The notes under the pieces: model-generated
Databases searched by the model: none
Seen by the model: the letters and a program-made list of their open reading frames with translations, nothing else
Told to the model about the DNA's origin: nothing
Made by a program: the position numbers and the translations under genes
Virus record (IMG/VR): IMGVR_UViG_3300017760_000116
Coordinates: 1-22,817 of that record
From: a virus
DNA: 22,817 bases
Strand: one strand, 5' to 3'
Shown: one piece after another, positions 1 through 17,405 of the stretch
Layout: the number at the start of each line of letters is the position of its first letter
Numbering within the stretch: the stretch's first letter is position 1

Positions 1-27
1 ACCTACACTTGTCACTCTAATAGTTGG
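1..27. repeat. 27-base direct repeat within the partial fibre gene (copy 1)
   Basis: Positions 1-27 are identical to 502-528. On the coding strand both encode P-T-I-R-V-T-S-V-G. The match includes silent positions, while flanking sequence is diverged. A second identical stretch of 15 bases (cctccgcttggaatg) occurs at 191-205 and 701-715 in the same module. These mark duplicated domains in the protein. Confidence 0.9.
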
Positions 28-1335
28 TTGTATTTGGTTATCTAAACTAATTGCGCCAAGCCCCTCAGCTTCTGAATAATACCACTCATCTGGTTCATCT
101 ACGTCTTCGACAGGAACAAAAACCCATCCATGCTTAGTGAGAGGAAGAGGAACATTAAGAACATCGCCTACTGAAAAGCCAGCCCCAGCCCCTCCGCTTG
201 GAATGCCAATGGATCCAGCTATTTTAAAATACTCTCTCCTTGCTGTGTACTGTCGACTGCCAATCCTTTCAGAACCCAATTCAATCGAGGCTGGAAACTT
301 AGGCCTAGAGGGAAAAGTATAAGTTTCAGATGTGGTAGCAGTAGAGGGGATTCGGTTGTCTGTTCGCGCATATACATCTAAAGGAGGAGAATTACCTGCG
401 CCCACGTTAACTTGGCCGAACTGATATGAACTGCCAGCTGTGCTGCTATATCTAAAATTTCCGCGTTCTTCTATCTGAGCTGTAAGTACCTGACCTAGTG
501 CACCTACACTTGTCACTCTAATAGTTGGCGTTGTTGTCGTGCCAACGAGAGGAGATTTTGGCATATTACCAAAACTCGCCGTTTCTGAGTAATACCAATC
601 ACTACCACCATCATCTGGATCATCTTCACGAAACCATCCGTGCTTACTAGAGACGAGTGGAACATTTAGAACCTCCCCCACTGAAAAACCACTTCCCGTG
701 CCTCCGCTTGGAATGGAAATAGATGCCATTCGAAAACTACTTCCAAAATTAAACCTTCCGATGGATTCAGATGTCAAAGTAATGCCAGCTGGTAACCTCC
801 GCCCAACACCTATTTGGTATGCTTCTGGAAAATGGCGTTGCCCTCCATAATAAGCTTCTCCAAAGTAAGTTCCTGTTCCAAGACTTCTAGTTCTGTTTCT
901 ATCAGCATTTTGAACTCTTCCAAAGTATTGAAACTTTCCGCGGTTTACAAACGCCCCACCTGTTATTCCACCTGTTTCAGAAACAGCGGTGACTCTAAAG
1001 GTTGGTTGATCATAAAGTGATACCGGCCATGTATAAGTGAACTCGTTATCATCATCATTATTATACGTAAATGTTTTGGGGTCTCGAAGAGGTATATCGA
1101 AAACTTCGCCAACAGAAAATCCAGTACCTCCACGCGTTATAGTAAATGTACCCATTTCATACTGCCAGCTAGGTGAGCTCGGCCGACTTGTACAAGATAT
1201 AGAAGCCGATTGATAATCTATTTCCCAAATAGTAGATCTCGTACCACTTTTTAATAAATCTACTCGTATAATGCTTGGATCGCCGTTGAACGATACCGTA
1301 TGCACGCCGTTTAAATCTATATTTTGTGTTGACAT
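1..1335 (-). CDS. Repetitive fibre-like structural protein (partial, C-terminus outside window)
   Basis: The reading frame starts with ATG at 1335 (MSTQNIDLNGVHTV) and stays open for 445 codons to the window edge, so the 3' end is missing. The start lies 29 bases after the stop of the tail-collar gene, which fits one co-transcribed tail block. The visible part holds three imperfect copies of a domain marked by a Gly-Gly-x-Gly...Phe-Ser-Val-Gly-Glu/Asp-Val motif near residues 69, 211 and 381. Each copy is followed 45-60 residues later by a P-T-I/F-R-V-T strand (about 111, 270 and 437). The second and third copies also share KHGW and WYYSE. No enzyme motif, signal peptide or membrane segment is visible. 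The modular, Gly-rich beta pattern and the position behind a collar fibre gene suggest a tail-fibre or virion surface protein; that role is inferred. I do not recognise a named family. Confidence 0.8.
   Translation of the reverse strand, partial: MSTQNIDLNGVHTVSFNGDPSIIRVDLLKSGTRSTIWEIDYQSASISCTSRPSSPSWQYEMGTFTITRGGTGFSVGEVFDIPLRDPKTFTYNNDDDNEFTYTWPVSLYDQPTFRVTAVSETGGITGGAFVNRGKFQYFGRVQNADRNRTRSLGTGTYFGEAYYGGQRHFPEAYQIGVGRRLPAGITLTSESIGRFNFGSSFRMASISIPSGGTGSGFSVGEVLNVPLVSSKHGWFREDDPDDGGSDWYYSETASFGNMPKSPLVGTTTTPTIRVTSVGALGQVLTAQIEERGNFRYSSTAGSSYQFGQVNVGAGNSPPLDVYARTDNRIPSTATTSETYTFPSRPKFPASIELGSERIGSRQYTARREYFKIAGSIGIPSGGAGAGFSVGDVLNVPLPLTKHGWVFVPVEDVDEPDEWYYSEAEGLGAISLDNQIQPTIRVTSVG
502..528. 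repeat. 27-base direct repeat within the partial fibre gene (copy 2)
   Basis: This is the second copy of the 27-base repeat starting at position 1, lying 501 bases away, exactly 167 codons. The repeats are therefore in frame and belong to equivalent positions of consecutive protein modules. Confidence 0.9.
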
Positions 1336-1364: not shown

Positions 1365-2849
1365 TTACGCAGAAGTTATTGTGAGAATTCCGTTAGATAC
1401 ACTAGCTGTCACACTCGTACCGGGCTGTCCGTCTTGGCCACGCGGGCCCTCGGTAGGGAAAACCTTTAGTTCGAGAAGTCCAGACGCACTAAATTTAAAA
1501 TGCTGTAGATTTACCGCTACGTTCAACGCAGTACTAAATAGATCGAGTTTGTCGCTATCATTACCTTGCGCGTTTTGCACGTTTATACCATTACCAGCGT
1601 GTATACTTACCTGTTGCACATCATCTGGAAGAACCTTAATGATATATTGCGTTATGAGATACGGCTGCATAACATTAACACTGCCCGTCAAGCTCGCGGA
1701 TGCACCAGATAATGAACCAGATAACGTACCAGCGCCGTGTGAGTGCGTTGCCGTCGCATTCTGCGAAGAAGAAGAATTAGTAGAAACAAGAACATCTGGA
1801 TCATCGCTATATGATGAACCAAACGCGCCTCTTCCTGTCTGATTTTGCCCTGTTAATAGTTTAGTCCCTGCTCCTTGCGATTGATTTCTTGAGGTATTCA
1901 CCTGCACTGGATTCGTATTCATGGTATGACTATGAGCCTTAACACCAGTCTCTGCGCCAGTAAGCTTATGACCAGCTGTACTGCCACTTATACTTACCCC
2001 ACCAGTTACATTACCACTCCCACTAAAGCTTTGATTTATTTTTCCTCCCGTATTTCCAACAATATACGTAGAACTTCCTGCGCCTAGAGGAACTTTACCG
2101 GTAAGATTAGGTAATCTAAAGTTATTGGTTGATGCAGTACCGTATTTATTAGCTATTATTCCAAAAAGCTCTGAATACGTATTCTTAGACACATTCTCGC
2201 CATTACAGAATTTCCATTTTCCATCAGCAGGTAAAGATGTACCAGCCCACGGCATAATCGTACCAACAGGGACTATATCGTTAAACACAAGTGTACTTAA
2301 ATTTACACTACCTGATCCACCCGCAACTTCTTCCCAAGTTAAATTGCCTTGCGAGTCTGTTCGTAAATATCTACCTCCAGTATAATTGGCTGGCCAAGTA
2401 TAATCGTTGTTGCGCAGCCGCATCTTACCTGATTCTACCAAAAGACGATTATTAGGTTCTGTACCATTAATCTCAATCCCTGAGTTCGGGTATCCTGCTC
2501 CTCCTACCACGCGTATACCATCATAAAAATCAACCTCCGTTAAGAAAGCCTTTTTACCACTAATCGATTCAGGTTGTCCGCTGGTGCCTCCAGTAAAAGT
2601 AACACAATTATCAATATTAGTTGTATTTGCAGAAATCGCCTCTCCAAGGGTGTCGAGCTCAGTTTGCAAATTAGTTACATTAGTAATTACGTGAGTGTGA
2701 TTAGTATCAGCCTTACTCGATAAATCAATATTACTTATAGCACCCTCAAGACTATCTTCAATTGATGCGAAGTCAGCGCCAAGTTGATTGGTTTTAATTC
2801 TCCACTGATCAAAAGTATCAGTTTGTTCTACTGGTATAAAATCTGCCAT
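1365..2849 (-). CDS. Tail fibre protein with phage tail-collar domain (gp12-like)
   Basis: The 494-residue product starts MADFIPVEQT. Residues 1-75 look like a helical attachment region and include SKADTNHTHVIT, a phrase common in phage fibres. Residues 193-256 (VPVGTIMPWAG ... FCNGE ... FRLPNLTGKVPLG) match the tail-collar family found in T4 gp12 and many tail fibres. Two His-Ser-His motifs follow at residues 306-308 and 369-371. T4 gp12 uses a histidine pair of this kind to bind zinc on the trimer axis, so a metal-bound trimer is likely but unproven. MQPYLITQYIIKV near 394-406 closes the collar region. The last 30 residues contain a short collagen-like run (GPRGQDGQPG) and a small beta tail. 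A late-promoter-like octamer lies five bases before ATG. The protein probably serves as a short tail fibre that binds the cell surface. Confidence 0.88.
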   Translation of the reverse strand: MADFIPVEQTDTFDQWRIKTNQLGADFASIEDSLEGAISNIDLSSKADTNHTHVITNVTNLQTELDTLGEAISANTTNIDNCVTFTGGTSGQPESISGKKAFLTEVDFYDGIRVVGGAGYPNSGIEINGTEPNNRLLVESGKMRLRNNDYTWPANYTGGRYLRTDSQGNLTWEEVAGGSGSVNLSTLVFNDIVPVGTIMPWAGTSLPADGKWKFCNGENVSKNTYSELFGIIANKYGTASTNNFRLPNLTGKVPLGAGSSTYIVGNTGGKINQSFSGSGNVTGGVSISGSTAGHKLTGAETGVKAHSHTMNTNPVQVNTSRNQSQGAGTKLLTGQNQTGRGAFGSSYSDDPDVLVSTNSSSSQNATATHSHGAGTLSGSLSGASASLTGSVNVMQPYLITQYIIKVLPDDVQQVSIHAGNGINVQNAQGNDSDKLDLFSTALNVAVNLQHFKFSASGLLELKVFPTEGPRGQDGQPGTSVTASVSNGILTITSA

Positions 2850-3067: not shown

Positions 3068-6000
3068 TTAATCAAATGTTGCAATTGCTCTGAAGTCTTG
3101 TACTGTTGGTACATTAACAATGTCTGTTGAAGTTAATACAATTTTCACTGCAAAGGCTGTAAATTCTAAACCAAACCTTGGATCTGCAGGCCCAGGATCA
3201 TCATCTTCTAAAGATTCTGGATCAAAATCATATTCAATCTCGGAGTATCTTCCATCAGAATTAACAGGAATACTTTTAGTAGGCCTAATTTCTTCCCATG
3301 GAACATCATCATAATCAGAATCATCTATCTTCAGCTTAACGAGAACTCGAATATTAGAATTAACACTTGGTCTATTACCTAAAAGATAAATATTTAATCT
3401 ATCGGCAGGATCGTTAAGTGCAACAGTGCGTGTAATATATTGAACATCTGCAGTACTCGAATCGTCAAGATAAGAGAATCCATCATCGATACGTCCATCA
3501 TTAGAAGATACACGCGTGTCAGTAGTTTCTCCTATAACAAGACCCTGTAATGAAGAAACTGTAAATGTTACATTAGGAGCTCCGCCGTTGCCTAATACAC
3601 TATCGGGAATAGTGACAACTTCATCTACAGAGTAACCAGTACCACCAGAAACAAGAGTAATATCACTTACATTACCGGTTGAAGAATCAACAGTAACACT
3701 AAATGTTGCTCCTTCGCCAGTAGTGCCGGCACCTACTACTGGATTATAAGTAGAAGCTACGCGAGAAGTATTAGCAGCAGTACTAGTAGCGTTGATACCT
3801 GTAATCACTCCGCGGTCAGAGCTAACAATTTGTGATACTGCTGGATTATTGATAATATTACTTATACCCAATAACGATAAGCGTGAAAGATCTAACAACG
3901 GTGATATATATTCAGATGTTGTAGATAAGACTGCAGTGAGAATAATGTCGGATGCATTTGCTATAGTTACTGGTTCTGTTAAGTATTCTGTATTATTAAG
4001 ATCAAAAGAATAAGACTCACCGCTGCTTCCAGCAAACTGAATTGACGTACTAATTCCTGTTTTAGGAAGAACTACATTAGACGAGAAAACCAAGAAGTTG
4101 GAGATAACAAACGATGATTGAGTTCCTAATCCACTAAAAGTAACAGTTTCTGAAGTAGATGTATCGTATTGAGCTCTATAAAGCGTAAACTTGAAATCGC
4201 GATTTTGATCAGGTGTCCAAGTTGATGCATTCTGTGACTTAAAAGACACACCGGTATAAGGATTCTTATCTATTCTACCCTGACCATTTACATCGTCTCC
4301 ACCAGTTTCTGACAACCACATACGAAAATCAGGTGAGTTTGATATAACAACAATAGCGTATTCAACACTAGGCTGTAAATAAACTGGGGCATCAAATGTA
4401 ATAGTCGTAGCATATGTAGCATCTAATCCATTTATTCCATCTCCTGCGATAGATGCTGCGATATGTCCGTGCTTACCAATATTGTCTGAATAACCAGCAT
4501 CACTTTCTGTAAGAGGATTGCCAGAACCATCTGTAACGCCTGTTGTTGGATTTAAGACTACCTCACTAAATGGAACTATATTCTGTGTTGGAATACCGTT
4601 TTCTACAGTCACCAAATGTACTGTAACAGGGATACTTGCATGTTTCTTTTGGAAAAATAAATCCAATTTAGTAACAGAAGTGCCAGTGGCAATTTCTCCA
4701 ATAATAAATGACTGTGCAAGAGGATCGCGGTTTCTGCGAGGTGGAGGCGGAGGAGTTATGTATGCAACATCAACATCTCTGTCTATATCTGTAAGAGTGC
4801 GTTCTGAAGTTAATCTTTCTTCATTGAACTCAGGAATTCTTGTAGAAAGAATAGTTGTTTCCTTTGTTTCAATTAATCCAGTAGCGTTATATGTTGCAGA
4901 GCCAAACGTAGTAGCGTCTGTGATAGAATTCCTAGGTGAATCAGTAAGAGTAACTTTTCTTTCACCTGTTTTGAATTTGATATCGGTGTTATTAGGTATA
5001 AAGCACTCTATGTCAATACTACCTGAAGCATCAGTAATTAATTCTACTCGAGTAATAGCAGGACTTCGCGCTGCAAAAATTTCTGCGGCGGTTTGATTTA
5101 AATGAATTTGGGCTGCATCGCTTTTAGCATCAAATTGGCTTGAAGCTGATGAAAGTTTACTAGAATAATCACTAATATTAACGCCATCGAAGAATACATA
5201 TAACTTTGTGTTTGGCTTAAACATTTGGCCATGTATTTCAATTCTTCGCGAACGGATAAATGGTATGAATGATACGTCAACAACTCTTTCTCCAAGATTT
5301 TCTTGTTGCTCTCTAAAGCTCATGGTTGTTCTTATACCCTCGCGAGATTGTTCAGTAGTAGTAGTTGTAGTAGTAATACTACCACGAAGTGCTCTCACAT
5401 CACGTCTGCCAGTTATTGCTTGCTTTGCAGCAGCATTTGCTGCTCGAGTTTCTCTATTACCTTGATCACTCCGGCCGATTCTAACATTTTCTACTTGAGA
5501 ATCAACACCAGTCCAATCAGTTTCCCATTCACTCCATTTAGTTCCAATAGCGCCGGATTCTTCAGCAAGAAATTGAACAGCGTCTGCAGAACCAGTAGAA
5601 TTAACAATCACGTCTGGCCTTACTCTTGTTTCTTTCCATTCATCCATTGAAGGATCGAGTTTAACAACTCCAAACCATGCAGCTACATCAAATGGATTTA
5701 CACTTTCTGAAACACTTGCGTAAGGCTGTGTAATTAGAGGAACATCGGTGTATGGTAATGTAACAGTTTCCTGAGATCGATAAGGATTTTGTGCACCAAG
5801 CAATACGTTAGTTGTACTATAGGAAGGTCTTAAAATACCACGCGCTGGTTCGATAGCACATTTGTAATCAGAATCAAACGGATTACCAATGTTATGGCCT
5901 ATAAAACTATCTACAAGAATTCCATTCTTAAATCTTTCTTCACCACCATTTGTGAAGATTTTCTTTTCTGTAGCTTCTTGTTCAAGCAATGAAAGGGAAG

Positions 6001-8611
6001 TATAGTACTCTAAATTCTTTACACGCTTTTCGATTGTACCAATATCTCTCATTGTATATCGACGATTATCAATAAATTTTATATTAATATCTCCTGTATC
6101 AAACGTATAAGCAGGAACAAACAATTCATGGAGAGCCATTGAATCACCGGGTGTTGCAGGTACTATTGGATTAAGAGAAGGTGTTCCTTTTACAACATCA
6201 AAGTCACCGATGTTTGAAACAACCACCTTATCGTATCTTGGAAGATAAACATTTAAACTATTGAGTTCTATAACCGTGTTAGGATCTACAGAACTTCTAG
6301 AATTATTAGAGCCAACATAAGGTCTAAAGTCTAAAACATCGGCTAAGAATAAATTTTCGTACGTAGGAATCTCATTATACTCAACATTAACTCCTGATTC
6401 TTCGTCACCGCCATAACTATCAACAGAGAAAAACTCGTTTTGTGTTGTCCAATCAAAGTAACGATACTCTATAGATAACGTATCACCATTCAAATCAGTT
6501 GATCCGGTATAAGTGATCCCACCATCTTGATAAAAATTATCTCTTTGTCCGTTGTCGAGAGTAAACTGTGATGTGATATTTTCATTCGAATTAGAAGTAT
6601 TTGTAATACTTACGATATCAAAGATATCGAACTTAGCTAAGTCTATATAAGAACCACTCGTAAAAGCGCTACTCGGTATATTAATAGTTTCTGTATGAGT
6701 TTTCCGCACTTTAGTGCCATGAGCCGCGTCTGACTTTTGCACAGTTGCAACAATAGATGTTACAGCTCCACTAAATTCAAGATCAACTGTGGCAGTGCCT
6801 TGACCTGAAATAGCAGTACAATTTTGATCATTGCCACTTGCGTCTATTCCTATATAATCAGAGAAACTATCAGATTCAAAAATCTCATTAGTGCCAGCAG
6901 AGATCTGCGGTGTGAGACTTGATTGTACTTGGGATGTTCTTTTATAATTTATGTGAGCCACTGTCACAGACTCGACAGTATTATGTGGAAGAGGGAAAAG
7001 TAAATTATTATTGTTTGATTCGAATAGCTCGAAGGTTGAATTGGCAAGTGGTTCAAACTTAAACGTAGTAGTAGAAATTGAAGTGGCTTGACCGAGGAAT
7101 CCGGCTGTAATGTTTACATCATATATGTATAACCGATAGTTGTTATCACTTACTTTTTCTAAAGAACGAACTTTACAGGTACCACCTGTTACACCATTAA
7201 TGGTGTATGTCACACTTTGATCGCTAAAATTTGGTAAGGCGTCTGTACCTGAGGCACCGCTAATATTTCCAACAACGTAATTACCGAGAGTCAGTGTAGT
7301 AAATGCTGGATTAGCAGATGAAGCAACATTTAATGTATCTCGTGCTTTTTCAACTTTAATTTCTTTTTTGTTTTTTAGATGAACTCTATATCCTTGAACA
7401 TAAGCAACAGAAGGTTCAATTCCAGCAAGATAATGTTTCTCGCCATAAACTACATTACTATCACTACCAAGCTCGATCTTTTCAATTGCATCTAAGTTTG
7501 TAATATCGGCTGCAGTAAATCTACCTCTGTTACCAGCCTCGTCATTTAAGTATTCTCTAACATCAAGCTTAAAAGGTTTCAAACAATAATCACCGCTTTC
7601 TTCAGATGTACGATTAGCAAACTTTCTATCAAGTTGAGTGTATTCAGTGCGAGCTGGCTTTACAACAACATCTAAATCTGTCTTAAAAAGGGTTATATAC
7701 GATTGAACATTGTCTACATGTAAAACGCCAGTATTATTTGTAACAAGCGCATCGTCAAGATCACTTAAAAAGGCAAGCTGAAAATCTATTTTATAACGGT
7801 CTGCGCCGGGCGCAGTTTCGTTTGGATATCCTGTTGCGTTATCTAATAGTAGTGGATCAGTCACATAAGTAACAACTGTGTCTGTTACAATAAAGGCAAG
7901 CCTACCGTTTAGTGTGTATTCTTCTGAAGGTTTAGCAATATAGATTTCTTCAGCCTCGTTATAAACAAACTCGCCATTGACGAAATACACACCAGCATCT
8001 GTTTTACCAATAGCACCATGACCAGTTTCTGCAACCGTAGCAAATGATGTTCCTGTATTAACTAATTCAGTAGGATTTTGACTATTGTCATTTGGATCTA
8101 CGATAGCGTTATCTAATTCGATTACATCAGTTGCAACGAATTCTCGAATGTTATTGCCACTTCCATCTTGCACAGATGAATCATAGCGAATAAAGAAACG
8201 ATACTTGTTTTCTTCTGCCAACGCTTCATAACGTAAAATTGACGCTTTTAGACCATTGCTATTTTCTATTTTTAGTATCTGATCAATGTATGTAATGATC
8301 GTAGCAGGAGTAGCAGGAGCGGTTGAAACATTATTGATCTCCTCCTCCAGAGTAATATCAATGTACTTGACGTCAGTATCTAAGTTGCCTCTACCTTGTA
8401 GAATAGGACCTTCTTTATAAACGCTTTGACCAAACTTATCGATCTGCGACTGCAGCATAGACTGCATTTGATTTAATTCACGAACCTGAACACTTACACC
8501 AGGTTTGAATAAAATTCTTAAATAATTTTTACCTTCAGCACCAGTAAACTGAACACTATTGGTATTGAAATCATCATTATAAGGAGGGACCGCGTATGTT
8601 TTAATTGCCAT
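3068..8611 (-). CDS. Large DUF4815-type virion structural protein (baseplate/tail periphery)
   Basis: The 1847-residue protein starts MAIKTYAVPPYNDDF. Its ATG shares one base with the stop of gene 8 (TAATG). The N-terminal section (residues 30-75, with LRILFKPGVSVQVRELNQMQ and FGQSVYKEG) is the signature I associate with DUF4815, a family of large structural proteins in marine T4-like phages. Further conserved-looking sections are VSFIPFIRSRRIEIHG (1113-1128) followed by KLYVFFDG, a proline run then DPLAQSFI near 1296, and VQYITRTVALND near 1723. A Gly-rich module with SGGTGYSVDEVVTI at about 1625-1695 looks inserted into the C-terminal framework and resembles repeats in the protein ending at position 1. 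A threonine run lies at 1079-1086. There is no catalytic motif, signal peptide or membrane segment. The neighbours place it at the baseplate or its fibres; its exact role is unknown. Confidence 0.85.
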   Translation of the reverse strand: MAIKTYAVPPYNDDFNTNSVQFTGAEGKNYLRILFKPGVSVQVRELNQMQSMLQSQIDKFGQSVYKEGPILQGRGNLDTDVKYIDITLEEEINNVSTAPATPATIITYIDQILKIENSNGLKASILRYEALAEENKYRFFIRYDSSVQDGSGNNIREFVATDVIELDNAIVDPNDNSQNPTELVNTGTSFATVAETGHGAIGKTDAGVYFVNGEFVYNEAEEIYIAKPSEEYTLNGRLAFIVTDTVVTYVTDPLLLDNATGYPNETAPGADRYKIDFQLAFLSDLDDALVTNNTGVLHVDNVQSYITLFKTDLDVVVKPARTEYTQLDRKFANRTSEESGDYCLKPFKLDVREYLNDEAGNRGRFTAADITNLDAIEKIELGSDSNVVYGEKHYLAGIEPSVAYVQGYRVHLKNKKEIKVEKARDTLNVASSANPAFTTLTLGNYVVGNISGASGTDALPNFSDQSVTYTINGVTGGTCKVRSLEKVSDNNYRLYIYDVNITAGFLGQATSISTTTFKFEPLANSTFELFESNNNNLLFPLPHNTVESVTVAHINYKRTSQVQSSLTPQISAGTNEIFESDSFSDYIGIDASGNDQNCTAISGQGTATVDLEFSGAVTSIVATVQKSDAAHGTKVRKTHTETINIPSSAFTSGSYIDLAKFDIFDIVSITNTSNSNENITSQFTLDNGQRDNFYQDGGITYTGSTDLNGDTLSIEYRYFDWTTQNEFFSVDSYGGDEESGVNVEYNEIPTYENLFLADVLDFRPYVGSNNSRSSVDPNTVIELNSLNVYLPRYDKVVVSNIGDFDVVKGTPSLNPIVPATPGDSMALHELFVPAYTFDTGDINIKFIDNRRYTMRDIGTIEKRVKNLEYYTSLSLLEQEATEKKIFTNGGEERFKNGILVDSFIGHNIGNPFDSDYKCAIEPARGILRPSYSTTNVLLGAQNPYRSQETVTLPYTDVPLITQPYASVSESVNPFDVAAWFGVVKLDPSMDEWKETRVRPDVIVNSTGSADAVQFLAEESGAIGTKWSEWETDWTGVDSQVENVRIGRSDQGNRETRAANAAAKQAITGRRDVRALRGSITTTTTTTEQSREGIRTTMSFREQQENLGERVVDVSFIPFIRSRRIEIHGQMFKPNTKLYVFFDGVNISDYSSKLSSASSQFDAKSDAAQIHLNQTAAEIFAARSPAITRVELITDASGSIDIECFIPNNTDIKFKTGERKVTLTDSPRNSITDATTFGSATYNATGLIETKETTILSTRIPEFNEERLTSERTLTDIDRDVDVAYITPPPPPRRNRDPLAQSFIIGEIATGTSVTKLDLFFQKKHASIPVTVHLVTVENGIPTQNIVPFSEVVLNPTTGVTDGSGNPLTESDAGYSDNIGKHGHIAASIAGDGINGLDATYATTITFDAPVYLQPSVEYAIVVISNSPDFRMWLSETGGDDVNGQGRIDKNPYTGVSFKSQNASTWTPDQNRDFKFTLYRAQYDTSTSETVTFSGLGTQSSFVISNFLVFSSNVVLPKTGISTSIQFAGSSGESYSFDLNNTEYLTEPVTIANASDIILTAVLSTTSEYISPLLDLSRLSLLGISNIINNPAVSQIVSSDRGVITGINATSTAANTSRVASTYNPVVGAGTTGEGATFSVTVDSSTGNVSDITLVSGGTGYSVDEVVTIPDSVLGNGGAPNVTFTVSSLQGLVIGETTDTRVSSNDGRIDDGFSYLDDSSTADVQYITRTVALNDPADRLNIYLLGNRPSVNSNIRVLVKLKIDDSDYDDVPWEEIRPTKSIPVNSDGRYSEIEYDFDPESLEDDDPGPADPRFGLEFTAFAVKIVLTSTDIVNVPTVQDFRAIATFD

Positions 8612-10071: not shown

Positions 10072-13000
10072 CTACCTTAATTCGGAAATCCCGTAATATG
10101 TGACTGACCCAACCCCGGTTTTTGTAAATCTATAAGTAGTATCTGGCGGTATAATCATACTACCGTTACTTGATACTCCTCCGCCACTATTTGTGCTAGT
10201 AGCGAACGTAAACTGAGACTCCGAACCTCCGAGTGGAGTTAAGTGAATATGTATGTTGTGAGCGTCTGATCCGCCTCCAAAATAACCTTTTACCTCAATG
10301 GGCTTACCTGTGTCATTATAATAAGACGTTCCGGTTATATTTCTAGCCGCATTCGAAAAAGACACCCATGTTTGATCGTAACCCAAACCTGTTTGCGCTG
10401 TAGAGGATGCGTCAACTCCATCCACCGCATCAATTTTTGTCAATACAGATCGATCACCGCCAATGCCGTTAGTTGTACTTAAGAATTTATAACTAATGTT
10501 ATATCCAACACCCCATAGGTTATCGTCTTGATCAGCCCCTACAAATGCATTATAATGGTCATAACCAAAGAGTTGGAAATCCTTTATAAAGACTCTATCT
10601 TCTTTAGCCATTTTTGTAAATGTGCTACGGTTAGTTAAATCGCCTGTTCCTAATTGCCCATGACCATTATAGCCTGATACAAACACTGTTCCATCAGTTT
10701 TAAGAATATACGCCGCAACATAGCTATCAGGGCCAAATAGTTTTACTTTCTTATTGTTTGTTCCTAAAGCAGCTATAGTAGTAGGAGAATTTCTCTGAGT
10801 TAAATCACCTGTTCCTAATTGACCAAGCGCGTTGTATCCAAACACCGTAATACCACCATCAGTTTCTATAACAATGGTTGAAGCAGTTGTACCGGCTGTG
10901 CTTATTTGAGAAACACCATTTGTAAGTGTAACTTGTTGAAATAAGAAACCGTTAGTCGTATTGCCTAATCCTAATTGACCATAAGCGTTATCGCCTGCAG
11001 CCCATAGATCTGTCCCATCCACGATAAATACCGATTTGTTAGCTTCAGTGCTATTGGCCACAAGATAATCTCCTTCTCGACCAGTATCAGCAAATAATGA
11101 CTTTGCCGTAGCGTGTCCTAATCCGCCACTACTCACACTACCGCACGACCATACTTTTCGATCTTCAGTGATTATAAATGACTTGCCATTAGAAATACTA
11201 TTAAATGCAAATGCCTTTTCAGCTTTACCATTTGCCGCGCCCTCACCAAATCCTGGAATTTGTCCAGGTGACATATTCACTGCGTTGTTATAAGTCTGCG
11301 CTGATCCTCTTCCTAATTCATTCGCATTATTATTTCCCCAAGAATAAGCTGTTCCATCATTTAGAATAGCAAGACAATGCACATAGTGAGTGTTTCCATT
11401 TCCTACTGATAACCATGCAACATCTTCAAGAATCAATTGAAAGCTTTTTTGCTCGCTCAGATCGCCTTGACCAAGCTGGCCAGTACCACCATATCCTGCA
11501 CCGAACACTCGTCCTCTATCTGTTAACACGAATGCACTAACATAGTTATCACCTGAATAATAATACTCGATTACCTTTTCACCGGTTTGTAATGGAATTT
11601 GCACACGAGAGTATGAAGGTATTGCCGCAGGAGATGCGCCATTCAGCTGATACGTACCTCCACCACCAGAGAAGATAAAGCTACTATCTTTCGAAATATA
11701 GCTAGAACCAAAGAATGTGCTGTACCCTTGATGATTCGGTGGATCAAAGAAAAATCCAAAGGAATTATCATACGACTTATATGTGCTAATTGCATTTGTC
11801 TTATAATTCTCAATGGTGTATTTCTGACCCATACTTGGGTAACCACCATGAGATGGACAAGGCAATTTAACTATACTTCTTCCATTGAGTTCAAATTTTA
11901 TTAAGAGAGGTTGCCATGCATGACCTGATAAGTTTTCATTTATTGTGAATGTTTTCTCTCCTACTAAGTCAGTTGAATATAGAAATCCATTACTTTCGTA
12001 TTCACTACCCCATGTATAAGTACCAAAAATGGTATTTGCATTCCAATCAACTGTTATCGTAATGTGATCTATTTCTTCATTAGCGGCGGCATTATAATTC
12101 CAATTATTTACTATGCTTATAACTGATTTAGATACGTTATCTGGAATTTCAATTGGAAATACACCAGACCAGTCAGTTGCGCCAGTTGTGGCTGGATCCT
12201 CACTTGTAAATACAGATGGACTATTAACAAAAGTACTTGTGTTTTCATCAACATATCCTTGCGGGCTCTGCTCGGACAACTGTGAACCAACGATCTGAAT
12301 AATATCAACATCTGGACTTAACTCAACTCGTTTTGTACATTGAGCTCCAACGATTTCGAATTCTACACCTTCGTTTTGATTGCGAATAAGATTAAAGTCG
12401 ATTTCGATTTGACTCTGCCCTTCGTTAACTGGCACTAATAATACCTGATTAAGATCATGACGCAAGGACCCACTTTCAGAAATTCTCCGAATGGATTCAG
12501 ATAAAGGTTTTTTCGAGCCATCTGGATATGATATATACAATTCTGTTCGCCTATTGCTATTGCTATCATGATGCCAGTTGTGGACTCTAATGAACAACCC
12601 TCGAATATTTCGATTAACGAGTCCAGTACCCGTTAGATTAGCAAGAGGAAATTGAATAGAGCCACTAACGCTGTGTGCATTTTCACTACCGCCGTAAGCG
12701 TTCCACCATGACCCAAATCCAACTCGGGTTGTGTCGTTGAGAGTTGCATCATAATCATTAGAGCTAACATCGACACCGCTACGTCTGTCCTCTGCTAGAT
12801 TATGAATGAATGGTGTGAATACGCCACTTTGAGGAGTCGCTTGATTTATTAAGTCTGTAAATGTTTGACCAGCAGGAAGAGTGAAATATGCATCGTAATG
12901 TTCCTTAGAGTCCATATTGGCACTGCTGTTCTCAAGATTTGCCCAAGTAAGATTCGTATATGTAACATTACTTGCACCGCTAATTGGCATGTATTCCATA

Positions 13001-14070
13001 TCAGCACCATAGTTACCAAAGTTTCCAGTAATCCATTCTGTACCATTATAGTACATTGAATCCCCATAAGAAGGAGTTACGCTTGAGTCTACATCAGTAT
13101 GATTATTACTAAATAGCTTGTGCGGTGTTATAGTTGAAGCAGTAGTTTGAAATCCTCCAGTGTTTGAATCATAAATCAAGAAGTCGTTTGCTTGGATACT
13201 CTCTGTTCCTACTAATTTATTAGCAGTGATGTTATAATCGTCTATCTTAGTTGTCGTTACTGCACCTGTTCCAATCTGCCCTTCCTTTATTATGTTAAGT
13301 GATAGTGTATCATTTGCAAAAGTAAAAGCCAAAGTATCGATCTCAGTTTCACCAATCTTTCCTGCTACTTCTGCAGTAAGATCACTAAGATCATTGGTTA
13401 GTGTAGTGTCCGCCGCACTTCTAGTCGTGGCCTCGGCAGCAACGAGACTATTAGCATGATTTTTGGCCGCTGTAAGATTGGCGGAATCCGCACTGATTCT
13501 CGCATCCGTCTCTGCGGTATCTGCATCATCAATGTATCCTTTATTTACAAGTGATGTCGTAGCGCTTCCATTTGTACTCAGTAAAGTAGGCTGAAGTAGC
13601 GATATTTTATCGTCACGCAATTGAAGTACAGATGTTAGTGTTGCAACACTACCTGTTGTGGTGCCTCCCTTTAATTGAAAATCTAATAGCTCTTGATTAC
13701 TGTCAACAGAAGATGTAATTCTCGCAGAAGAGCCAGCTCTATCAGGAATACCACCTGTATGATTAAATGTGATATTAGCATCACCGTAACCATCATTAAG
13801 TGTAAGACCAATGGTACCTCCTCCATCAGTGCTTGCACCCGAATCAACATATCCTGCAATAATATCGTGGCCCGCTCTTAACACCCCGCCTGTTGTCCAC
13901 GTTGGCGCGCCAGTACTTAGATTATCTTCAAGCGCAGGTTTAAGATCATCTATTGTTGCTTGATACGTATCCAGCCCGCTTTGTCCATCTGCTTGTACTA
14001 TTGCTAATAGCTCGGGTCCACTTGGAGTTGATGGAATTAGGTCTAGTTCTGATATTTTGATTTCAGCCAT
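10072..14070 (-). CDS. Tail fibre-like protein with seven-bladed RCC1 beta-propeller
   Basis: The 1332-residue protein starts MAEIKISELDLIP, a fibre-type N-terminus. Residues 170-235 are rich in Ala, Thr and Asp with heptad-like spacing (ADTAETDARISADSANLTAA) and probably form a trimeric coiled coil. Beta-rich regions follow at about 360-780. Residues 843-1200 contain seven RCC1-type repeats. The clearest read GRVFGAGYGGTGQLGQGD, DLWAAGDNAYGQLGLGN, ITVFGYNALGQLGTGD and TVFVSGYNGHGQLGTGD; weaker ones are TAYSWGNNNANELGRG, KVWSCGSVSSGGLG and NLWGVGYN. RCC1 propellers usually bind proteins, and in a phage fibre could contact the host surface. The last 85 residues form a small beta domain ending YGISELR, like a fibre tip. 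The gene lies between the gp7-like gene and gene 8, where T4 has none. Fibre identity is inferred; the RCC1 repeats are visible directly. Confidence 0.85.
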   Translation of the reverse strand: MAEIKISELDLIPSTPSGPELLAIVQADGQSGLDTYQATIDDLKPALEDNLSTGAPTWTTGGVLRAGHDIIAGYVDSGASTDGGGTIGLTLNDGYGDANITFNHTGGIPDRAGSSARITSSVDSNQELLDFQLKGGTTTGSVATLTSVLQLRDDKISLLQPTLLSTNGSATTSLVNKGYIDDADTAETDARISADSANLTAAKNHANSLVAAEATTRSAADTTLTNDLSDLTAEVAGKIGETEIDTLAFTFANDTLSLNIIKEGQIGTGAVTTTKIDDYNITANKLVGTESIQANDFLIYDSNTGGFQTTASTITPHKLFSNNHTDVDSSVTPSYGDSMYYNGTEWITGNFGNYGADMEYMPISGASNVTYTNLTWANLENSSANMDSKEHYDAYFTLPAGQTFTDLINQATPQSGVFTPFIHNLAEDRRSGVDVSSNDYDATLNDTTRVGFGSWWNAYGGSENAHSVSGSIQFPLANLTGTGLVNRNIRGLFIRVHNWHHDSNSNRRTELYISYPDGSKKPLSESIRRISESGSLRHDLNQVLLVPVNEGQSQIEIDFNLIRNQNEGVEFEIVGAQCTKRVELSPDVDIIQIVGSQLSEQSPQGYVDENTSTFVNSPSVFTSEDPATTGATDWSGVFPIEIPDNVSKSVISIVNNWNYNAAANEEIDHITITVDWNANTIFGTYTWGSEYESNGFLYSTDLVGEKTFTINENLSGHAWQPLLIKFELNGRSIVKLPCPSHGGYPSMGQKYTIENYKTNAISTYKSYDNSFGFFFDPPNHQGYSTFFGSSYISKDSSFIFSGGGGTYQLNGASPAAIPSYSRVQIPLQTGEKVIEYYYSGDNYVSAFVLTDRGRVFGAGYGGTGQLGQGDLSEQKSFQLILEDVAWLSVGNGNTHYVHCLAILNDGTAYSWGNNNANELGRGSAQTYNNAVNMSPGQIPGFGEGAANGKAEKAFAFNSISNGKSFIITEDRKVWSCGSVSSGGLGHATAKSLFADTGREGDYLVANSTEANKSVFIVDGTDLWAAGDNAYGQLGLGNTTNGFLFQQVTLTNGVSQISTAGTTASTIVIETDGGITVFGYNALGQLGTGDLTQRNSPTTIAALGTNNKKVKLFGPDSYVAAYILKTDGTVFVSGYNGHGQLGTGDLTNRSTFTKMAKEDRVFIKDFQLFGYDHYNAFVGADQDDNLWGVGYNISYKFLSTTNGIGGDRSVLTKIDAVDGVDASSTAQTGLGYDQTWVSFSNAARNITGTSYYNDTGKPIEVKGYFGGGSDAHNIHIHLTPLGGSESQFTFATSTNSGGGVSSNGSMIIPPDTTYRFTKTGVGSVTYYGISELR

Positions 14071-14105: not shown

Positions 14106-17100
14106 TTATTTTACTAAGTATGCATCGCCATTAGGGTCTGTCGCATCCTTATCTTCAGTTGTTATATCTTCAAGATCTTCAGTGTTCAAGCGAAGATTGT
14201 CTATAAGAGATATATCAATAATAGATCTTATGTTATTAAAAATATTTTGATTATTAAAAACCGCTTCTTCAAACGTAGTGTTTAAATAAGGTCCAATTTC
14301 GTTTACATCGAAAAATTTAAGATTTTGTAAATAGTCTCCGCGAGCAAATGCATTTCTGTCTTTTGTTGTTATGTGAAGAAGATGAAGTGTCGATAGTACC
14401 ATCCTTTGATATGAAGGATCATTGGGCCCAAGACCAAATTCGAAAGCTTCAATAATCATTTCAAGGAACCTTAAGTCTCCAGTTAACCAACCCGGTTGAA
14501 AGAGTGGCATGTGGTGCGCATTATCACTTGCATCTAAGATAGATGGTGGTGTTAAACCTTCCATCCAATCAAGATCAATCAGAGGATCGTTGGTTCTATA
14601 ATTCTGTGTGTATCGTGTACTATCAAATGTTGCCTTATATTGTCTTAATACCTGATCAAACCGCACCTTCGGGCCAATCCAATTGTTTTCTATATAAAGT
14701 ATATACAGCACCGCTGCAAAGAATTTTAGTCCAGCGGGGTGCACCATTCTAATATATTCGTTTTCCCATTGATCAGAAGATATACCAACATTAAGAACAT
14801 ACGAAAACTCCTGCCAAAAATCACCATCATGTAATCGATTAATGTCTGAAGCAAAACTATGCTGATTTTCGTATGTGCCAATATTTCTTGGCGTATAGGT
14901 GTGTCTAACATTATTTCCCGATGAAAATAAATCAGACCTAGAATCTCCCCATCTCACCTTTTGCTTTTCAACCGCGACTGATTGAGTATACTCAACCTTT
15001 ATACGCACAGTTGGTCCAACTCCAGATTCATCTAATGTTGGGCCCGCGAATTCAATAAATGTATCGATTTCATGACCTGATAATAAGTTTAAAGTATACG
15101 CTTCTTCTTTTGCTTCAACTAATGTTAATCCATTCACATAACTTCCATCTTTATTATCAAACGTTATTTGATAATAGTTTAACGCTACACTTATATAATA
15201 GTTGTGTACTTGTAAAACATCAGCTGCTGACAAAGCAGTATTATAATACTGAACATTCGTCATAGATCCTTTAAATGCATCAGTGTTCGATCTGCCAATC
15301 GTAATACGTGAATCAGAATCAACATTTAAATGCACGCTAGTGTCACCTAAAATAATAGTTTCCCAAGCGCCACCATCAACTGACACTTTAATATAGCCTC
15401 CTTTACGCGCCTGCTTTCCTGTCAAAGCAACAGTGTGGTATTCGTTATCGATTGGAATAGTGGCGTGTGAAGAAAAGTTCATAGCGAACTGCCGATCCAC
15501 TGAAATTAGCGGACTGTTTACAGGTGTATTTACAAACGCGTTCTCTGTCGGCGAACCACTTCCGTTGAACCATTCAACATTCGCAGCAAAGGCATCTTCA
15601 TTGGTGTCTTCTGAATAACACAGAATTACGCCTGTAGAAGAAAACGTTTGCGTGTTTAAATTCCACACTGATGCACCTTTAAATACCCACTTATCCCCAT
15701 CATAATATATTTTAGCAACCGGCCAGTTTTCTACAGTGCCAAATCCTTCATTTTCGTCCCAAGTGGTTTGGCTTAGATGATATCCCGATGTAGTAGAGCC
15801 CGACGCGACAACGCGGAAGTATTCTGTATCTACATAAAACGGTTTACCGTTATATAGTCCAGTGCCGCTAGCGTATGCGGTATTTTTATAATACTCATAC
15901 CCGAGTGATGAAGCGGCGTCTATGTTTCCTCTCCAGTCGTCCATTGCCGTAAAGCCGTGAATACGAATATTGTTTCCATATGCTTCGATCATTGGATTAC
16001 CAGTATAATAAAATTTGCGGCCTAGTTTACCTGTATCTCGATCTATGTATAATTCATGTCCCGGCTGGAGCTGTGTGAAGAACTCGCGAACTGAAAATAC
16101 ACTTTGGTATTGCTTACCGCCTGATCCTCTTTTTACTCTTGCGACTATAGTGTGGTCATCTGTAACAAGTGAAGAAGACTGATTTCCAATTGCGCTTACA
16201 TTAATATAATCAGCGACTGCTCCAGGAAAAATAAATTCAGAGATTTCTTCATTATATGTAACACTTCCTCGAATATTCCCTACCCAAGGATAATCAGTAT
16301 TCGATATCCAAGTGGCGTCTGTAGCATTTTGTTTACTATCAAAAGCAATCTGTAAACCTTCTTCTATATTATCATAATCGAAAGATTCATCAACATTAAC
16401 AAAACTAGATAGTTGACCGGTGCCTAATTTGTTTCCTTGTGCATCATTAACGTTAAAGAGAGTATTATTATCTTCAGTTTTTAAATCGCCAGATAAAAGA
16501 TTACCAATGATTTCAACTTCTTCATTATCGTCGCGGGGTTTCCACGCGCCATCAGAAAGTTTAAATAGTCTTTCCTTTGGATATACAACAGTTACAGCTT
16601 CATCAAAGAAAATACGAAAAAACGCATATAAGCTATCCTCTGATCCTCGCGTTGAATAGAATTTAACAATCTTTTTGTAAAGAGAAACTTGATCAAGTAC
16701 CTTTGAGTTTGGCACGTTCTTCGCTATTTCACTCCCGATACTATCTAAGTACTTTGCTGAAACGCGGTCGATGTCGTGATTATCGAGAATAAGATTTATT
16801 TCATACGAAGGAAGGCCTTCTGCATTTAAATAATTGTAATAATCTTTAAGCAATTGAATAAGACCCTGTGCTTTCCCTATAAGCTGCTCGGGTATAAGGG
16901 TGTTTGTCCGAGTTGTTTCAAGATTTTGAGGGACGACAGAATCAGACACAGACGCAACTGCAATAGCAGATTGTGCGGTTGAAATATTTGCATATGAAAT
17001 TATGTCATTAGTAACGCTATATGTTGCATACTCTTGATACGTAAAGTTACCATAATACGCGGATGACGGTGGGTTTGTAACTCCATGATTCATCTCATTT

Positions 17101-17405
17101 GAAGGCATATAAAATACCTGGTTCAATCCTGTAAATGTATGAGAATGATATGCTCCGCTAATCAATGACTCATCGGTATAAAGAGGATAAAAATAACCCA
17201 CGGTTCCGGACGTATTCCCGCTATTGCTTTCACCTTGTAAATAATAAACTGCCCCAGAGACAGTGGGTGAAGAACTACTGCTCGAAGATCCAGAAGAACT
17301 ACTTGATCCAGAAGAACTACTTGATCCAGAAGAACTACTGCTCGAAGATCCAGAAGAACTACTTGATCCAGAAGAACTACTGCCCGATGAAGAATGATAT
17401 GACAT
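14106..17405 (-). CDS. 7: Probable baseplate wedge protein gp7 (Ser/Gly N-terminus, lectin-like middle)
   Basis: The product has 1099 residues against 1032 for T4 gp7, and the gene lies directly after gene 6 as in T4. Residues 5-46 are only Ser and Gly. Residues 172-282 form a helical region (LIQLLKDYYNYLN, KIVKFYSTRGSEDSLYAFFR, VTVVYPKERLF) of a kind I associate with wedge and tail-tip proteins of marine T4-like phages. Beta strands at about 390-440 and 640-735 (DDHTIVARVKRG; HTVALTGKQARKGGYIKVSVDG; RITIGRSNTDAFKGSMTNVQYYN) look like two parts of a LamG/concanavalin-type fold split by a roughly 190-residue insert. That insert contains YNGKPFYVDTEYFRVV. Residues 862-897 carry FWQEFSYVLNVGIS and MVHPAGLKFF, familiar from phage baseplate proteins. 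The role by homology is to nucleate wedge assembly with gp6, gp8 and gp25. The gp7 name rests on position, size and recalled motifs. The lectin reading is weaker. Confidence 0.68.
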   Translation of the reverse strand: MSYHSSSGSSSSGSSSSSGSSSSSSSGSSSSSGSSSSSGSSSSSSSPTVSGAVYYLQGESNSGNTSGTVGYFYPLYTDESLISGAYHSHTFTGLNQVFYMPSNEMNHGVTNPPSSAYYGNFTYQEYATYSVTNDIISYANISTAQSAIAVASVSDSVVPQNLETTRTNTLIPEQLIGKAQGLIQLLKDYYNYLNAEGLPSYEINLILDNHDIDRVSAKYLDSIGSEIAKNVPNSKVLDQVSLYKKIVKFYSTRGSEDSLYAFFRIFFDEAVTVVYPKERLFKLSDGAWKPRDDNEEVEIIGNLLSGDLKTEDNNTLFNVNDAQGNKLGTGQLSSFVNVDESFDYDNIEEGLQIAFDSKQNATDATWISNTDYPWVGNIRGSVTYNEEISEFIFPGAVADYINVSAIGNQSSSLVTDDHTIVARVKRGSGGKQYQSVFSVREFFTQLQPGHELYIDRDTGKLGRKFYYTGNPMIEAYGNNIRIHGFTAMDDWRGNIDAASSLGYEYYKNTAYASGTGLYNGKPFYVDTEYFRVVASGSTTSGYHLSQTTWDENEGFGTVENWPVAKIYYDGDKWVFKGASVWNLNTQTFSSTGVILCYSEDTNEDAFAANVEWFNGSGSPTENAFVNTPVNSPLISVDRQFAMNFSSHATIPIDNEYHTVALTGKQARKGGYIKVSVDGGAWETIILGDTSVHLNVDSDSRITIGRSNTDAFKGSMTNVQYYNTALSAADVLQVHNYYISVALNYYQITFDNKDGSYVNGLTLVEAKEEAYTLNLLSGHEIDTFIEFAGPTLDESGVGPTVRIKVEYTQSVAVEKQKVRWGDSRSDLFSSGNNVRHTYTPRNIGTYENQHSFASDINRLHDGDFWQEFSYVLNVGISSDQWENEYIRMVHPAGLKFFAAVLYILYIENNWIGPKVRFDQVLRQYKATFDSTRYTQNYRTNDPLIDLDWMEGLTPPSILDASDNAHHMPLFQPGWLTGDLRFLEMIIEAFEFGLGPNDPSYQRMVLSTLHLLHITTKDRNAFARGDYLQNLKFFDVNEIGPYLNTTFEEAVFNNQNIFNNIRSIIDISLIDNLRLNTEDLEDITTEDKDATDPNGDAYLVK
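17269..17382 (-). repeat. Tandem 18-base repeats encoding the Ser/Gly segment
   Basis: Five copies of an 18-base unit (plus strand gatccagaagaactactt or ...ctg) lie at 17287-17304, 17305-17322, 17323-17340, 17347-17364 and 17365-17382. A 6-base spacer ctcgaa sits before the first copy and between the third and fourth. There is also a higher-order repeat: 17269-17321 and 17329-17381 are identical over 53 bases at an offset of 60. All units are multiples of three, so copy-number change keeps the frame and only alters the length of the Ser/Gly run. Confidence 0.92.

Follow-up and report, generated by a model that had tools for sequence, protein, structure and literature searches.

An orphan modular protein, probably an adhesin or fibre component, built from long-duplicated units in an exchangeable slot of a T4-like marine virus

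The window analysed here is an entire virus record of 22,817 bases, which is itself a fragment. Its long reading frames lie on the minus strand, and encode baseplate and tail proteins of a marine, T4-like virus. The product of gp8 was identified through both Pfam and PHROG, and three further products carry, respectively, a DUF4815 domain, RCC1 repeats and a tail-collar domain. In HTVC008M, a record classed in the Kyanoviridae, the genes to which gp25 and gp6 align carry the annotations base plate wedge subunit and baseplate wedge; in Mosig, the corresponding annotations are baseplate wedge Gp25 and baseplate J domain protein. The DUF4815 protein (3068-8611) matches genes annotated as VrlC by tblastn, and is approximately 33% identical to the VrlC of HTVC008M over 75% of its length. 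The order of genes is VrlC, a small gene, the collar gene and, last, the gene for a modular protein, which is the subject of this analysis. The features relevant to it are as follows.

1-1335, minus strand: incomplete gene of the modular orphan protein, which is presumably a virion component; the ATG is at 1335, 445 residues are visible and the 3' end is missing at the contig end
1222-1335, minus strand: putative N-terminal attachment segment of about 38 residues (MSTQNIDLNG...STIWE), resembling the N-termini of the proteins in the same slot in relatives L004 and L021
925-1236, minus strand: module copy 1, residues 34-137, diverged; as drawn, it overlaps the N-terminal segment
448-795, minus strand: module copy 2, residues 181-296
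1-297, minus strand: module copy 3, residues 347-445, cut by the contig end
502-528, minus strand: 27-base patch of copy 2, encoding PTIRVTSVG, matched in copy 3 by bases 1-27, where the contig ends
701-715, minus strand: 15-base patch of copy 2, with its partner in copy 3 at 191-205
1365-2849, minus strand: tail collar-domain gene, the upstream neighbour, mosaic relative to relative L002 and dissimilar in the last block before the slot
3068-8611, minus strand: VrlC/DUF4815 baseplate gene, identified by its DUF4815 match and by tblastn to VrlC genes, the landmark preceding the host recognition cluster

Repeats also occur elsewhere in this tail region. At 17268-17394 there is a perfect 60-base tandem repeat (17269-17381, 1.9 copies, 100% matches), which encodes the Ser/Gly N-terminus of a 1099-residue protein at 14106-17405; L002 and L006 have an equal number of units, one of them two serines shorter, and the version in L004 is irregular. 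The tail-region protein at 10072-14070 has RCC1-like repeats in its C-terminal part (Pfam PF00415, E 2e-20), and its best tblastn segment covers just the first 344 residues in L004 and 276 in L005, suggesting that the C-terminal parts may have been swapped.

The first-pass annotation had described three in-frame modules in the protein, the second and third of which shared short stretches of identical DNA, and on these points it was accurate. The motif GGxG..FSVG[ED]V occurs at residues 69-78, 211-222 and 381-392. The 27-base match between copies 2 and 3, ACCTACACTTGTCACTCTAATAGTTGG, is exact at 1-27 and 502-528, a spacing of 501 bases, and encodes the core segment PTIRVTSVG; a third version at 979-1005 has 67% identity. 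The 15-base match, CCTCCGCTTGGAATG, is exact at 191-205 and 701-715, a spacing of 510 bases, and sits at the IPSGG segment; it is flanked on both sides by mismatches, inside a 69-nucleotide pair with 78% identity. When both copies were resampled from the window's codon usage with their proteins kept, the longest shared exact stretch averaged 10.6 bases and in none of 500 trials exceeded 19, whereas the observed match is 27 bases long. The 27-mer is therefore far beyond chance under this redraw; a 15-base match on its own would be unremarkable by the same measure. The left edge of the 27-mer is the contig end rather than a sequence boundary, such that the true length of the match, and the number of modules, may exceed what is visible.

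At the protein level, alignment of whole units scored 205 for copies 2 and 3 (best of 2000 shuffles 65), 88 for copies 1 and 2 (best 64) and 64 for copies 1 and 3, barely above the best shuffle of 62; for each of the three pairs, none of the 2000 shuffles reached the observed score. Copy 1 is related to copies 2 and 3 at the protein level only. At identical degenerate residues, copies 2 and 3 agree in their codon in 32 of 48 cases, against 18.1 expected from usage (P = 2e-5); the corresponding values are 11 of 35 against 12.9 expected for copies 1 and 2, and 9 of 23 against 8.4 expected for copies 1 and 3, both of which represent saturation. Because the synonymous sites of copies 2 and 3 are not saturated, these two are true duplicates.

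At the thresholds applied, this protein is an orphan, apart from a weak match of its module profile to one locus, L034, discussed below. Neither Pfam nor PHROG returned a match for the full sequence, and the modules had only insignificant PHROG matches (best E 0.06). The full protein had no homologue among the viral contigs and genome contigs scanned, and an alignment of the modules found no relative in the genome contigs, nor, using a query with one wrong residue, in the viral contigs; with a query carrying the same error, a search of six records including the window's own gave matches only in the latter. Similarly, tblastn against phages yielded no match for the full protein at E 0.01, nor for one module at E 10 (again a query with one wrong residue), and a sequence search of the PDB gave only insignificant matches. 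The full protein, its N-terminus, module 2 and the module profile found nothing in 366 frames, and the full protein matched none of 6609 frames from 108 loci. A tail fibre or receptor-binding protein would be expected to resemble some established fibre or adhesin family, and the Pfam, PHROG and phage tblastn searches revealed no such homology, although these scans rely on short peptide patterns or filters that distant relatives can escape. Structure prediction gave a mean AlphaFold pLDDT of 31 for the whole protein and 53 for one module, which was predicted to be all strand at low confidence; both models are too weak to build on, and a beta fold for the module is only a suggestion of this model.

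One explanation for the modules is that they are divergent members of a common class of marine phage virion repeat, which we refer to by the working name of GGxGY beta repeats, with a long inserted loop, in which case there would be nothing special in this gene. The likeness lies in a short GGxG[FY]-VG[ED]V motif with a predicted strand after it, and the same short motif is present in the window's own VrlC (SGGTGYSVDEVVTIP). A profile of 13 GGxGY units reached 69 of 6609 frames near baseplate genes at E 0.01, and ranked the modular protein second of 201 by full score. Profiles iterated to 137 and 257 units, built without L033-L035, did not favour the modular protein by full score, which was matched by 574 and 891 of 1000 shuffles respectively, while its best single domain was reached by only 11 and 18 of 1000. 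The top match of the module profile among the 6609 frames of the 108 loci, L034 (E 0.0027), is itself such a repeat protein, but the comparison is circular, as this locus and the next, L033 (E 9.3), were fetched using the motif itself. Furthermore, the alignment of the modular protein to GGxGY units spans just 12 or so residues around the motif, and the long acidic and aromatic loop of the modules was not seen in the repeat units listed. To judge by these profiles, the likeness goes no further than the motif, and we regard it as unlikely that the three copies are simply GGxGY repeats. A good reference for the common marine phage repeat is the 917-residue protein at 10001-12754 of L030, which has 14 GGSGY-type domain matches.

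The near-identical patches had originally been read as a sign of recent duplication or gene conversion. Duplication of copies 2 and 3 stands on the evidence of codon sharing given above, but its recency does not, and conversion is not needed. A recently duplicated or converted tandem repeat should have nearly identical synonymous sites, and the 27-mer alone is identical throughout; across the pair, dS is 0.87 (bootstrap 0.55-1.41) and dN is 0.44. This dS is approximately tenfold greater than that between the window and L002 at the best-matched genes, namely 0.06 for gp6 (391 shared codons), 0.08 for the small gene and 0.09 for gp8, although it is higher elsewhere: 0.21 for the serine-rich protein, 0.43 for the collar gene and 0.66 for VrlC. 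Relative to L004, dS is 0.17 for the small gene, 0.18 for gp25, 0.25 for VrlC, 0.38 for gp6 and 0.65 for gp8. Codon sharing gives the same contrast, with 32 of 48 in modules 2 and 3 against 403 of 420 between the gp8 genes of the window and L002 (Fisher P = 4e-9). Hence the module duplication seems to predate the divergence of the genes that match L002 best; set beside the most diverged of the genes shared with L002 and L004, its age seems similar rather than clearly greater. As phage genomes recombine, these comparisons of dS give a relative age and not a date.

The distribution of changes between copies 2 and 3 accounts for the patches. Firstly, the core and the loop do not differ in their synonymous changes (Fisher P = 0.76, from rounded counts in just 34 and 31 codons, with gaps within the loop alignment). 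Secondly, they do differ in their nonsynonymous changes (P = 0.0001, also from rounded counts), with a dN/dS of 0.21 for the core, 0.59 for the loop and 0.69 for the head. Thirdly, the longest run of identical codons, nine, is within chance both by permutation (P = 0.34) and by simulation at the rate outside the patch (P = 0.14). With synonymous divergence even, only amino acid divergence differing and the run within chance, selection on the protein suffices, and gene conversion is not needed to explain the patches.

It is nevertheless worth weighing whether copies 2 and 3 are recently duplicated, or undergoing continuing conversion, and are now changing the length of a fibre or its binding surface. 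The exact 27- and 15-base matches speak for this, and the 27-mer has nine of nine codons identical (3e-5 by usage for that patch taken alone), with 0 differences at 7.7 synonymous sites compared with 34.7 at 67.5 for the whole pair, although the patch was chosen post hoc. As the run is cut by the contig end, it may be longer, and a conversion tract may extend beyond this point. Set against these observations are the overall dS, the lack of a synonymous contrast between core and loop, the run length being within chance, and the codons outside the patch, where just 23 of 39 match. A literature search on gene conversion and tail-fibre repeats produced, among the matches listed, no title concerned with tail-fibre repeats. 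Overall, we consider recent duplication or ongoing conversion decidedly doubtful. It is highly improbable that the exact match is partly an effect of assembly, with the contig having stopped at, or borrowed, a k-mer of the other copy: the match does begin at base 1, and the 27-mer was found in none of the other viral contigs scanned (a scan that may omit close neighbours of the window's own record), but the second copy is inside an unbroken contig and codon sharing is also raised outside the patch (23 of 39 against 15.2 expected, P = 0.007).

In pelagimyophages, a host recognition cluster with tail fibres has been described between VrlC and gp14 (PMC7029224), and a hypervariable region is treated in part of an account of another pelagiphage (PMC10504331). 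The modular-protein gene occupies the corresponding position, downstream of VrlC in the structural region, as judged from the DUF4815 match, tblastn and gene order. The content of this slot differs between relatives, as determined from the nine other contigs in which the collar gene is present together with the conserved gene that follows the slot (MPFAKII/MPYSKII), with loci ending sooner left out of the count. The slot holds a 236-residue gene in two of the nine; a 324-residue gene and three more genes in one (L004); a 218-residue gene in another; and, in two (L021 and L022), a 439-residue gene whose product has five FG-GAP_2 matches (Pfam PF14312). In the remaining three it is without any frame of at least 70 residues. 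Two of the small slot genes of L004 (16879-18037) share FWYP...YCGWHTN...R.YL.WA...SFFRY and have no significant Pfam match; we presume, as a guess, that they are possibly oxygenase-like.

No match to the modular-protein gene was found by tblastn in any of six loci (L002, L004, L005, L021, HTVC008M and Mosig). This includes L002, the gp6 of which is 99.5% identical to that of the window, yet in which the modular-protein gene is unmatched. Between these two viruses, 60-nucleotide blocks of the collar gene with 95-100% identity alternate with blocks of 23-57%, others being intermediate; towards the slot, identity is 95-98% over 180 nucleotides, 83% over the next 60, and then approximately 40% in the last 100 or so. 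The L004 counterpart of the collar gene is a 129-residue collagen-like protein, the match to which is limited to the first 25 residues. From the slot and its borders, we infer that the modular-protein gene belongs to an exchanged host-recognition cassette, the arrival of which, or its replacement in relatives, would have been later than the internal duplication. As the dS yardstick varies by gene and by relative, this ordering of exchange after duplication rests on the better-matched genes.

There are hints that the proteins in this slot share an N-terminal attachment segment. The N-terminus of the modular protein scored 12.2 bits against a model of the slot proteins of L004 and L021, compared with 8.0 for the best of 1000 shuffles and 4.3 for the best control frame, the model being built from two sequences only and its scoring part being residues 1-18. 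This similarity is weak but, if real, would mean that the slot proteins are related in part and not entirely distinct. Beyond the N-terminus, the 324-residue protein of L004 has no significant homology to the modular protein.

Our preferred explanation, which we consider probable, is that this gene, from a marine virus of T4-like (Kyanoviridae-like) type, specifies a modular adhesin or fibre component that is an orphan, and in which an old in-frame duplication of modules was followed by the retention of DNA patches through selection and, afterwards, by cassette exchange. The protein would function in host recognition or as a tail adhesin, its gene lying in an exchangeable slot that follows VrlC and the collar gene. 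It would begin with a short attachment segment and contain a beta-rich unit, approximately 160 residues long and present in three or more copies, each having a conserved core (GGxG-FSVG[ED]V...PL, PT[IF]RVT[SA]V) that bears fast-changing acidic and aromatic loops, which may bind receptors. Copies 2 and 3 would derive from an old in-frame tandem duplication, and copy 1 from one still older. The DNA patches would persist as purifying selection holds the core residues, while the loops change and synonymous sites drift evenly. Recombination after the duplication would then have brought in the whole gene, or replaced its counterpart in relatives. The suggestion in the first-pass annotation that such duplication offers a route for altering fibre length or binding surface is compatible with the position of the gene in a host-recognition slot. 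A broader proposal, which we advance tentatively and think rather unlikely, is that the protein represents a hitherto unrecognised modular adhesin family of marine T4-like viruses, with a conserved core, loops that diverge between copies to give several binding surfaces per fibre, and transfer between viruses as a cassette.

This case separates old internal duplication with loop divergence from whole-gene exchange at one slot, two processes that are easily confused in phage adhesins. Where near-identical DNA patches are encountered in such genes, synonymous divergence should be checked before recent conversion is called. The modular protein is an orphan from a marine virus group and may be a receptor-binding part.

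Several known systems offer comparisons. The FG-GAP protein of L021 and L022 is likewise built of repeats, is encoded in the same slot and has an N-terminus of weak similarity, but its repeat type is unrelated, and the modular protein lacks any Pfam match. In T4, the host range of the gp37 tail-fibre adhesin was reportedly expanded via duplications of a small domain, in work attributed to Tetart et al. from 1996. The in-frame duplication of a segment within a protein of the host-recognition region is common to both cases; the differences are that the units in the window are approximately 160 residues long and that their duplication is old. The family searches found no sequence relation between the modular protein and gp37. 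A parallel in gene arrangement is the host recognition cluster of pelagimyophages and cyanomyophages (PMC7029224): an island downstream of VrlC, of variable content, with tail-fibre genes and with conserved baseplate genes before it. The window departs from this cluster in the identity of its VrlC to that of HTVC008M, which is only approximately 33%, and in having a modular gene without a match to an annotated fibre family.
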